Assembly: GCF_002924445.1 (NCBI RefSeq)
Contig: NZ_PIGG01000031.1
Span: 124,001 to 188,000, forward strand
Direction of reading: 5' to 3'
DNA from: Minwuia thermotolerans
Lineage (GTDB): Bacteria > Pseudomonadota > Alphaproteobacteria > Minwuiales > Minwuiaceae
DNA length: 64,000 nt
This document shows positions 21,526 through 54,908 of this stretch, piece by piece. The translations under genes were made by a program, and so were the position numbers. The notes beneath the pieces are model-generated. The model was not told the DNA's origin. It saw only the letters and a program-made list of their open reading frames with translations, and did not search any database. How positions within the stretch are numbered: position 1 is the stretch's first letter; each line of letters opens with the position of its first letter.

Positions 21526-21554
21526 TTGACGGAATCGAGGAACTTACGTAGAAC
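21526..21554 (+). promoter_or_regulatory. lexA promoter with LexA operator over the -10
   Basis: TTGACG (21526-21531), 17-nt spacer, TAGAAC (21549-21554). Overlapping the spacer and -10 is GAAC-TTACGTA-GAAC (21540-21554), which on the other strand reads GTTC-N7-GTTC, the alphaproteobacterial SOS box. LexA bound here would block RNA polymerase, giving autoregulation. A further single GAAC half-site lies at 21521. Confidence 0.82.
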
Positions 21555-21595
21555 ATAACAGGATTCGTTTTCGAGCGGTCAGGAGGCCGACGCCC

Positions 21596-22309
21596 ATGCT
21601 CACACGCAAGCAACACCAGCTCCTGCTCTATGTTCACGACTATCTGAAGGACAATGGCGTCTGTCCTTCGTTCGACGAGATGAAGGACGCGCTGGACCTC
21701 AGGTCGAAGTCCGGCATCCACCGGCTGATCACGGCGCTCGAGGAGCGCGGCTTCATCCGCCGCCTGCCGCACCGGGCGCGGGCGCTGGAGATCCTGAAGC
21801 TGCCGGATTCGGCGACGCCCGAGGGCCGCCAGAGGATACAGGAGCCGAAGGTCGGCGCATTCCAGCCCCAGGTCGTGGCGAGCCAGCCGCTGCCCGCCCG
21901 GGCGACCCCCGCCCCCGCGGCCGGCGAGAGCGCCACCCTGCCCCTCTACGGCCGGATCGCCGCCGGCACGCCGATCGAGGCGCTGCGCGACCAGTCCAAC
22001 TACATCGACGTTCCCGGCCACGTGCTGGGCCGGGGCGAACACTACGCCCTGGAAGTGGCCGGCGATTCCATGATCAACGCCGGCATCCTGGACGGCGACA
22101 CCGTCGTGATCGAGCGCTGCGACACCGCCGAGAACGGCGCCATCGTCGTGGCCCTGATCGACGGCGAGGAAGTGACGCTGAAGCGCCTGCGCCGCCGCGG
22201 CAACGCCATCGCGCTGGAAGCCGAGAACCCGGCCTACGAGACCCGCATCTACCGCCCCGACCAGGTGCGCATTCAGGGCCGGCTGACCGCCCTCTTCCGC
22301 CAGTACTGA
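21596..22309 (+). CDS. lexA: SOS repressor LexA
   Basis: 237 residues, the longer alphaproteobacterial form. N-terminal winged helix-turn-helix (1-70, [14 protein letters not shown] ... [18 protein letters not shown]), a Pro/Ala-rich linker (about 85-112), then the S24 peptidase domain with self-cleavage bond Ala123-Gly124 in GRIAAGTP, nucleophile Ser158 in [10 protein letters not shown] and general base Lys196 in VTLKRL. It represses SOS genes until RecA filaments trigger cleavage. A matching operator lies in its own promoter and another pair before the small ORF at 46259. Confidence 0.97.
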
Positions 22310-45500: not shown

Positions 45501-46041
45501 GGCGCTGAAGTTCGACATAGAGCCGGTCGCCGAAACGGGCCTTCATCTCCGCCAGCCAGGCGCGTCCGCCGGCGGCGTCGCCGTCGGCCAGCATCCGTCC
45601 CAGCGGTCCTCCGGCGCCGCCGGTGAGCGCGATGAGCCCGTCCGCACGGCCCTCCATGGCGCCAAGCGGCAGATGCGTCGAGAACATGGGATCGGATTCG
45701 AGGAAGGCCGCGGAGACCAGGGCCATCAGGTTCATGTAGCCGGTCTCGTTCTGGACCAGCAGGACGACGGGCGCAAAGAGCGGCCGCTGCTGGCCCGCCG
45801 GCGCGCGGCTGTCCCAGCCGTACTGGACCGAAAGCTGGCAGCCGATGATCGGCTGCACCCCCGCCCCGGCCACCGCCGGGCAAAACTCCATGACGCCGAA
45901 CAGGTTGTTGGTGTCGGTCACCGCCACCGCCGGCATGCCGGCCTTCGCCGCCGCCCCGGCAAGGTCGCCGAGCCGGATCGCGCCCTCGGCGAGCGAATAG
46001 GCGCTGTGCGTCCTCAGATGCACGAACTCCGCATGCGCCAT
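42571..46041 (-). CDS. dnaE: DNA polymerase III subunit alpha
   Basis: 1156 residues from ATG 46041 (GGAGAG ribosome site); the longer open frame above it is not used because this ATG gives the standard start [17 protein letters not shown]-terminal PHP domain, polymerase core with catalytic acids in [15 protein letters not shown] (near 405), [37 protein letters not shown] (as [18 protein letters not shown]), and a C-terminal OB domain plus tau-binding tail. This is the replicative DnaE1 type, not the ImuB-linked DnaE2. It follows the LexA-controlled small ORF on the same strand with no terminator visible between them. Confidence 0.97.
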
Positions 46042-46258
46042 GGCCGAACTCTCTCCGCTGCCGCCCGATCGGAACCCACGCGGCCGCGCCCCTTTGCCTT
46101 GCCGGAGAATCGGCCGCCGCGGTTCCATTGTCCCAGACCGCGGCGTCCACGTCCCTACCCGGCAGGCGTCATTCGTCCCCCGTTCGCAAGATTGCTGTGG
46201 ACGAAGCTGTGGACGGAACCGCCGTCGCCGCGCCGCCCCTGTCCCGTCCCGCTTCCGC

Positions 46259-46366
46259 TCAGCCGATGCCGGACAGCGCGCCGAACATCTGCGTCCAGGC
46301 GGCCAGCACGCCCCAGATTCCCACCAGCGCGGCCAGCGCGCCCAGATCCCTCATCCATTCCATCAT
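46259..46366 (-). CDS. small membrane ORF, putatively SOS-induced (SidA-like candidate)
   Basis: 35 codons from ATG 46366 to TGA 46261-46259. The ribosome site is near perfect: AGGAGG at 46377-46372, 5 nt before the ATG. The peptide starts MMEWMRDLGAL, then forms one hydrophobic helix (about residues 8-32, with LAALVGIWGVLAAW) and ends GALSGIG; three Trp and four or five Met are present. Its promoter carries two LexA operators (46396-46431). It is too short for routine gene calling. The Caulobacter SidA division inhibitor is likewise a ~30-residue single-helix, LexA-regulated protein; similarity here is in architecture and control, not in aligned sequence. Function unproven. Confidence 0.68.
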   Translation of the reverse strand: MMEWMRDLGALAALVGIWGVLAAWTQMFGALSGIG

Positions 46367-46392
46367 CGCCCCCTCCTGCTGCGTTGGAGACA

Positions 46393-46431
46393 TATGTTCG
46401 TCAAATGTTCTCTTTATGTCAACACATGTTC
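46393..46431 (-). promoter_or_regulatory. SOS promoter with tandem LexA operators
   Basis: Minus-strand reading: perfect -35 TTGACA (46422-46417), 18-nt spacer, -10 AACATA (46398-46393). Operator 1, GAAC-ATTTGAC-GAAC (46410-46396), is a perfect 8/8 match to the alphaproteobacterial LexA box and covers the spacer and -10. Operator 2, GAAC-ATGTGTT-GACA (46431-46417), matches 6/8 and covers the -35. It starts 3 nt after the lolD stop and lies 27 nt before the start codon of the 35-residue ORF. Confidence 0.78.
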
Positions 46432-46433
46432 TC

Positions 46434-47120
46434 TCACAATGCCGCCTCCCGGAGGACGCCGTCCTCCATCAGCACCGCGCGGTCCATCTGGCGGGCGAGC
46501 TGGAGGTTATGGGTGGCGACGAGGACGCCGGTGCCGGCGGCGCGGGCGACTTCGACCAGGTGATCGAAGACCCGTCCGGCGGTGCCGGGATCGAGATTGC
46601 CCGTCGGCTCGTCGGCCAGAAGGACGGCCGGGAGATTGGCCAGGGCGCGGGCGATGGCGACGCGTTGCTGCTCGCCGCCCGACAACCGCGCCGGGCGGTG
46701 GTCGCCGCGTTCGGCGAGGCCCATCTGGCCCAGCAGTTCCGCGGCCCGCACCGCCGCCTCCTTGCGGCTCTTGCCCGCGATCATCTGGGGCAGGATCACG
46801 TTCTCCGCTGCGGTGAACTCCGGCAGCAGGTGGTGGTACTGGTAGACGAAGCCCAACAGGGTCCGGCGCATCGCCGTCCGGCGGTCGTCGTTCAGCCCCG
46901 CCGCCGACTGGCCGGCGATGGCGACGTCGCCGCCGTCGGGCTTTTCCAGCAGACCCGCGATCTGCAGCAGCGTCGACTTGCCCGCGCCGGACGGGCCGAC
47001 CAGGGCGACAATCTCGCCGGTGCGGACCTCCAGCGAGGCGCCGCGCAGCACTTCCAGCGTCCGCTCCCCCTGCCGGAAGGTGCGGATGACGCCGTCCAGG
47101 CGCAGCGCGGGGTCACTCAT
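46434..47120 (-). CDS. lolD: lipoprotein-releasing ABC transporter ATPase LolD
   Basis: 228 residues. Walker [11 protein letters not shown]-loop [13 protein letters not shown] (typical LolD), signature [15 protein letters not shown], Walker [13 protein letters not shown]. Powers extraction of lipoproteins from the inner membrane with the LolC/E-type permease encoded just upstream (8-nt overlap). The stop lies next to the SOS operators. Confidence 0.94.
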
Positions 47121-54368: not shown

Positions 54369-54482
54369 CCCACCGGCGCTGGGTCTCGTGAGCGGAACTA
54401 GCGTGACGCCTGAGATCATTTCGTTCGACAACTTCGCCGGAACGCCGGAACATGTCGCGAACATGCTCATCAGGAGGGCGAG

Positions 54483-54908
54483 ATGGCCGAACACCCGACA
54501 CGAACCGGCGGATGCCACTGCGGCGCCGTCAGCTACCGGATCGACGGCCCGGTCCGCGACATCATCGCCTGCCATTGCGGACAGTGCCGCAAGACCACGG
54601 GACATTATCTCCCCGCCGCTTCGGTCAACCGGCGTCATTTCTCCATGACCGAGGACCGCGGGCTGAAATGGTATCGCGCCAGCGAATCCGCCGGACGCGG
54701 CTTCTGCACGGAGTGCGGATCGTCGCTGTTCTGGCTCGGAGACGGCTCGGAGCACATATCCATCGTCGCGGGCACGCTGGACGATGCCACGGGCCTGAAG
54801 CTGCAGGGTCACATCTTTACCGCGACCAAGGGCGCGTACTACGAACTGGAGCCGGACCTGCCCTCCTGGCCGGCAGGCGATGGCGGCGCCTTCCCGATGC
54901 CGGAGTGA
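54483..54908 (+). CDS. GFA (glutathione-dependent formaldehyde-activating) family protein
   Basis: 141 residues, CENP-V/GFA zinc fold. Cys clusters: GGCHCGAVSY (near 12-17), CHCGQCRKTTG (near 34-40) and CTECGSSLFW (near 78-81). The family includes S-(hydroxymethyl)glutathione synthase, but most members lack proven activity. Ribosome site AGGAGGGCGAG before ATG. Ends 4 nt before the convergent FMN reductase. Confidence 0.88.
   Translation: MAEHPTRTGGCHCGAVSYRIDGPVRDIIACHCGQCRKTTGHYLPAASVNRRHFSMTEDRGLKWYRASESAGRGFCTECGSSLFWLGDGSEHISIVAGTLDDATGLKLQGHIFTATKGAYYELEPDLPSWPAGDGGAFPMPE

Follow-up and report, generated by a model that had tools for sequence, protein, structure and literature searches.

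A LexA-boxed small gene ahead of dnaE in Minwuia thermotolerans is a probable ortholog of Caulobacter sidA with relatives in other alphaproteobacterial families

Introduction

To our knowledge, few DNA damage checkpoints have been described that target the FtsW complex, which builds the septum, and not FtsZ; SidA is one of them. In Caulobacter it is a 29-residue inner-membrane protein, LexA-controlled and SOS-induced, which acts via FtsW (PMC4211646), and the filamentation of a lexA deletion is due to sidA (PMC12700426). The LexA site in Caulobacter is GTTC-N7-GTTC (PMC9578287; PMC12700426). AlphaFold3 models place SidA on helix 7 of FtsW, with complex models that are not of high confidence (PMC13396833).

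Other small membrane proteins resemble SidA and the peptide described here in part. DidA of C. crescentus, also a small protein with one helix, inhibits division by acting on FtsW/I/N (PMC4211646), but by description it has 71 residues, is SOS-independent and is induced by DriD. YneA of Bacillus, ChiZ of Mycobacterium and SosA of Staphylococcus are SOS- or damage-induced single-helix division inhibitors, and YneA binds FtsW (PMC13396833). A LysM domain is part of both YneA and ChiZ, whereas the peptide considered here has 35 residues and a Pfam scan gave no match in 8/8 members of its family (in NCBIfam, one of the eight had a weak match, PA1414_fam, E 0.021). The Escherichia coli peptides TisB and DinQ are likewise LexA-controlled, small and membrane-bound. 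TisB is a toxic peptide with an RNA antitoxin. DinQ, which is toxic, SOS-regulated and spans the membrane once, has an RNA antitoxin as well (PMC3567139).

Results

The locus and its LexA boxes

The window, i.e. the whole stretch of 64,000 nucleotides of Minwuia thermotolerans DNA that was analysed, carries the following features around the frame under study and around lexA.

47120-46434, minus strand: lolD, upstream neighbour, an open reading frame with its stop at 46436-46434; used as query for synteny
46431-46417, minus strand: 6/8 LexA box GAACATGTGTTGACA with a third GAACA half-site; overlaps the -35 element
46422-46394, minus strand: putative promoter, TTGACA (46422-46417), 17 nt, GAACAT (46399-46394)
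46410-46396, minus strand: LexA box GAACATTTGACGAAC, a perfect GAAC-N7-GAAC (GTTC-N7-GTTC on the plus strand), inside the putative promoter
46377-46372, minus strand: Shine-Dalgarno sequence AGGAGG, 5 nt ahead of the ATG, read off the sequence
46366-46259, minus strand: sidA-family gene, 35 residues and stop, translation MMEWMRDLGALAALVGIWGVLAAWTQMFGALSGIG
46041-42571, minus strand: dnaE (replicative polymerase), downstream neighbour, an open reading frame
21540-21554, plus strand: perfect LexA box GAACTTACGTAGAAC, 41 nt before lexA
21596-22309, plus strand: lexA, 237 residues, Pfam PF01726 above cut-off; the repressor expected at both boxes

An initial annotation had read this place as a LexA-controlled, SidA-like division inhibitor candidate, naming a 36-codon frame with AGGAGG 5 nt before its ATG, a single hydrophobic helix, and a promoter (TTGACA / AACATA) covered by one perfect and one 6/8 LexA box. 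The frame, its ribosome site and both boxes were all found. On the minus strand the lolD stop is followed by three GAACA half-sites, the first and second of which flank TTGACA, then by AGGAGG and by the 35-codon frame with its stop. A gap of about 200 nt then leads to dnaE, which may start at 46041 or at an in-frame ATG further upstream at 46128. A scan found no terminator-like site between the frame and dnaE, so that co-induction of dnaE by read-through is possible.

The box type is very probably the site of the organism's own LexA, because one such box precedes lexA in the same window and a perfect box was found ahead of lexA in 5/5 genomes examined. The lexA box probably serves self-control of the gene. 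About 24 kb separate lexA and its own box (21540-22309) from the sidA-like gene, and in the Caulobacter-like genome G477 the distance from lexA to dnaE is likewise about 28 kb. A third perfect GAAC-N7-GAAC box lies at 54448-54462 (plus strand), 20 nt before the ATG at 54483 of an open reading frame (54483-54908, 141 residues) that contains the stretch GGCHCGAVSY and that we take to be GFA-like; this box is possibly a further LexA target, or chance.

As for the promoter, TTGACA stood as proposed, but AACATA makes a poor -10 hexamer; GAACAT, at a spacing of 17 nt, is a slightly better fit, and a consensus scan called no sigma-70 promoter at 46422-46394. All seven genomes of the genus retain both TTGAC and the GAACA half-site of the upstream box. 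At the 46410-46396 position the box is perfect (8/8) in six of the seven and 7/8 in the nearest relative (G006). The second box is imperfect in all seven. The three GAACA half-sites, the first upstream of -35, are spaced 21-22 and 11 nt apart in 7/7 genomes (46396-46431 and the same-genus loci L002-L007); they may take up several LexA dimers, or the additional half-site may be left over from an earlier state.

The frame as a gene

The annotation had argued that these elements together are hard to obtain by chance. The perfect box taken alone is not significant: the window holds three against 1.11 expected, and 8 of 100 shuffles reach three. The argument from the combination held up once relatives were compared. 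Among 100 stretches upstream of dnaE, a perfect box followed by a hydrophobic small frame occurred 12 times on the sense strand, never on the antisense strand (0/100) and at a mean of 0.03 per 100 in shuffled sequences (30 rounds).

The 44-residue reading of the frame was searched in 60 related genomes, and it was found in 6/6 genomes of the same genus (Minwuia in GTDB terms) and 2/2 of the same family; weaker, more distant matches were mostly noise. Five of the copies lie in Minwuia (GTDB) records, one of them filed as 'Kordiimonadales bacterium IMCC3096'. The suggested synteny check showed lolD upstream and dnaE downstream of the frame in all six same-genus genomes. In both same-family genomes the frame is followed by dnaE, in G008 at a distance of about 0.7 kb, and one of the two has lolD ahead of it.

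Substitutions fall mostly at synonymous sites. The window and its nearest relative differ by four synonymous and no non-synonymous changes, and four further same-genus pairs gave synonymous/non-synonymous counts of 3/1, 5/0, 7/1 and 18.7/6.3. Differences at codon positions 1, 2 and 3 numbered 1, 0 and 11 between G005 and G004, and 5, 2 and 15 between G003 and G004. A chance open reading frame is ruled out by the conservation and the mostly synonymous change; the question of chance is settled since the comparison shows a kept frame, synonymous change and boxes in relatives. Translation most likely begins at the ATGATG at 46366, because in the longer reading two of the first nine residues differ from the nearest relative and none of the following 35.

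The same data bear on whether the frame is a leader whose translation controls dnaE without yielding a working protein. The distance of some 200 nt to dnaE and the lack of a terminator-like site between them would suit such a role. The conserved part, however, is a membrane helix and not a run of a single codon, its residues are conserved under mostly synonymous change, and in G008 dnaE begins only about 0.7 kb further on. We give this explanation very little credence.

The peptide

The predicted peptide consists of a short N-terminal segment, MMEWMRD, followed by a single hydrophobic helix. AlphaFold2, run on the 35-residue peptide, agrees with the proposed single helix and places it at residues 3-31 with a mean pLDDT of 87.6; charged positions are limited to residues 3, 6 and 7. 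With one predicted membrane helix and 35 residues, the peptide is close to the SidA type (about 29 residues) and slightly longer than published SidA.

A peptide of this form could instead depolarise the membrane or slow growth upon SOS induction, as E. coli TisB and DinQ do, and not halt division. The LexA box, the small size and the single hydrophobic helix fit that reading equally well. Charges confined to positions 3, 6 and 7, however, speak more for a helix that crosses the membrane than for an amphipathic pore. TisB and DinQ have RNA antitoxins; a search of 45900-46700 against the known RNA families of Rfam, up to E 1, gave no known antitoxin RNA and a single match, unrelated and far below cut-off, though an undescribed RNA may be present. 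Family membership and position, described below, also favour SidA, and a TisB- or DinQ-like toxic action is unlikely.

The counterpart in Caulobacter

Caulobacter was located with the C. crescentus CtrA protein as query in 119 genomes of one family. Matches at 100% were found in 4/119 genomes, and matches at or above 97% in 13, all of one genus, which was on this basis taken for Caulobacter. DNA upstream of dnaE was read from 14 genomes of this genus, i.e. the 13 and G408, which fell below the CtrA cut-off. A related peptide lies ahead of dnaE in 14/14. Its length is 29 residues in twelve; in the other two (L098, L099) the stretch read ended before the end of the peptide. The family profile was positive at all 13 CtrA-matched loci and at L077 (G408).

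Across the whole Caulobacteraceae-like family (f64), 27 of 30 dnaE-upstream stretches (the best 30 of 38 matching genomes among 40) scored above the highest antisense score, in part by construction because the profile holds rows from this family. Boxes of at least 7/8 are present at all 27 of these loci and at all 13 loci of the Caulobacter genus, and are perfect in 15/27 and 6/13. Three of the 30 stretches (L079, L088, L091) have no peptide before dnaE by profile.

We take Caulobacter sidA to adjoin dnaE. We infer that the dnaE-upstream peptide of this genus is SidA, matched by length, place, helix, box and genus. The window peptide resembles it in a LexA box within the promoter (here the perfect GAAC-N7-GAAC at 46396-46410), one predicted membrane helix, a length near 30 residues, a [RK][DE] pair preceding the helix and, given the presumed place of Caulobacter sidA, a location ahead of dnaE. 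It differs in having 35 residues against 29, in low pairwise similarity, and in lolD lying directly upstream, whereas at the Caulobacter loci lolD homology is found about 1.1 kb or more upstream.

Homology tests with profiles

Because pairwise similarity is low, profiles were used. The groups tested were the window family (f1), the Caulobacteraceae-like family (f64) and twelve others from dnaE-upstream positions. Peptides of f42, f5, f121, f126, f116, f123, f58, f53, f71 and one of f19 had been chosen by position, box and hydropathy; those of f10, f4 and the remaining f19 peptides had been chosen by the first profile. Each group was left out of the profile once, and its peptides were then scored against a null set of 418 hydrophobic small open reading frames, which came from unrelated loci, from antisense strands and from the window after masking.

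Held-out scores exceeded all 418 nulls for 6/6 peptides of the window family and 16/16 of the Caulobacteraceae-like family; the nulls were not cleared by the f53 peptide or by one of the two from f5. A profile of three f4 peptides alone placed 5/6 and 13/16 peptides of these two families, respectively, above all nulls. Comparisons between the two families themselves gave less. A profile of f64 only placed the window peptide above all nulls, but between 5 and 82 of the 418 nulls outscored its five relatives; when run over 18 genomes the profile found a dnaE-upstream member only in G328 and missed the window peptide. A profile of the window family only placed 0/16 f64 peptides above all nulls, and direct profile-profile comparison gave P = 1.4e-4 over 25 ungapped columns with a probability of 53%. 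Members share a pattern of [RK][DE], three residues and a helix often starting L-x-[SA]-[VL]. Homology to the Caulobacter SidA family is thus reached, by these sequence comparisons, through intermediate families, the direct two-group comparison being weak.

The low pairwise similarity and the failed direct f64-profile search would also be expected if an unrelated LexA-controlled membrane peptide, SidA-like in action, had evolved independently at the same locus, as would the dnaE-upstream candidates with perfect boxes that stay below the family threshold (G049, G175, G147, G123, G130, G078). Against this, both groups score above all nulls when held out, f4 bridges them, and the locus and the box position are shared, which makes independent origin highly improbable. 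The initial reading of the frame as LexA-controlled and SidA-like is supported by the SidA-length peptide before dnaE in the Caulobacter genus and by held-out profiles that join both groups.

At L207 (G060) a box in reversed orientation (GTTC-N7-GTTC) precedes dnaE and is followed by a hydrophobic small frame unrecognised by the profile. With this orientation and a score behind 7/418 nulls, G060 was not counted as a member.

Reach across Alphaproteobacteria

The first profile was run over 385 genomes of the class. Its top 12 places (E ≤0.002) were all next to dnaE or lolD, and at E ≤1 it matched 121 of the 385, mostly noise. A profile of 26 peptides, run over 372 genomes, matched 44 at E ≤0.05. 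The best 30 places were read: 28 follow a perfect box and adjoin dnaE or lolD, and two (L237, L238) do not. Many of the 28 are profile rows or near copies; six come from genera without a row (G361, G284, G071, G366, G208, G299), and for G366, G208 and G299 the families likewise have no row. A search of the phylum (398 genomes) placed 24 of 25 matching genomes in this class, part of which were checked at the locus. The sole match outside it (G730) has an internal stop, no box and no dnaE or lolD nearby, and looks spurious.

In one family (f171), ten genomes of 6-9 Mb from two genera were matched and nine loci were read (L235, L257-L264). The peptide reads VEEAAALASI-x-LF-[VI]-GMIA-[IV]-WAQ-[VL]-[IL]-PQL, and in 9/9 loci a perfect box stands 60-66 nt ahead of the start of the match, with homology to dnaE setting in 218-319 nt beyond that start.

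The census of dnaE-upstream DNA took 100 stretches from 177 matching genomes, with known loci and many small genomes omitted. Six of the 100 stretches passed the family profile, five of which are its rows. Box and small frame occur together in the 12 stretches given above and not in the other 88, which indicates that the gene is patchy. An apparent fusion of the peptide with dnaE in G255 was caused by a run of N.

A family was counted if it has a member at the locus that either, when held out, scored above all nulls and passed the threshold, or matched at E ≤0.005. Thirteen families were counted (f1, f4, f5, f10, f19, f58, f64, f71, f91, f121, f126, f171, f175); f42, f116 and f123 were left out because they clear the nulls but miss the family threshold. 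That the frame might stand for a new family in its lineage is not supported: held-out profiles and the class-wide search speak against a new lineage-restricted family, and the peptide belongs to the SidA family, which extends beyond the lineage. In the literature searched on SidA and LexA regulons we found no description of SidA outside Caulobacter; the founding SidA paper may discuss it. Within that search, what looks new is the spread of sequence-supported SidA relatives, next to dnaE or lolD, over 13 families of Alphaproteobacteria.

Discussion

The in silico evidence establishes a gene, its conservation, its LexA box and its SidA-family membership via intermediates. With a probability of roughly 77%, we consider 46366-46259 an ortholog of Caulobacter sidA that encodes an SOS-induced peptide blocking division at FtsW/FtsI/FtsN.

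Damage induction, membrane insertion and topology, target and division block are what we infer for such a peptide. In undamaged cells, the promoter would be kept shut by LexA bound to the GAAC-N7-GAAC box within it. Upon damage, RecA would trigger LexA self-cleavage, the promoter would open and the short peptide would be made. These two steps are proposed because of the site of the box and known SOS logic. The N-terminus (MMEWMRD) would remain cytoplasmic and the single helix would cross the inner membrane. There the peptide may bind the FtsW/FtsI/FtsN complex and hold it inactive, so that no septum forms until the DNA is repaired; this step is carried over from SidA. FtsW is present in this genome, with 55% identity to Caulobacter FtsW over the aligned region.

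A broader reading, offered tentatively, is that SidA is no peculiarity of Caulobacter but an old SOS division brake shared by a sizeable part of the Alphaproteobacteria and retained next to dnaE, with a transcript that reads into dnaE, by which division would be stopped and the polymerase raised together. If one gene family at one locus does serve as this checkpoint in many alphaproteobacterial families, the origin of the checkpoint, its loss and its contact surface could be tested, and natural variation in a single short helix would form a map of the demands of FtsW binding. The census also suggests a rule for annotation, which is to seek a LexA-boxed small frame ahead of dnaE.
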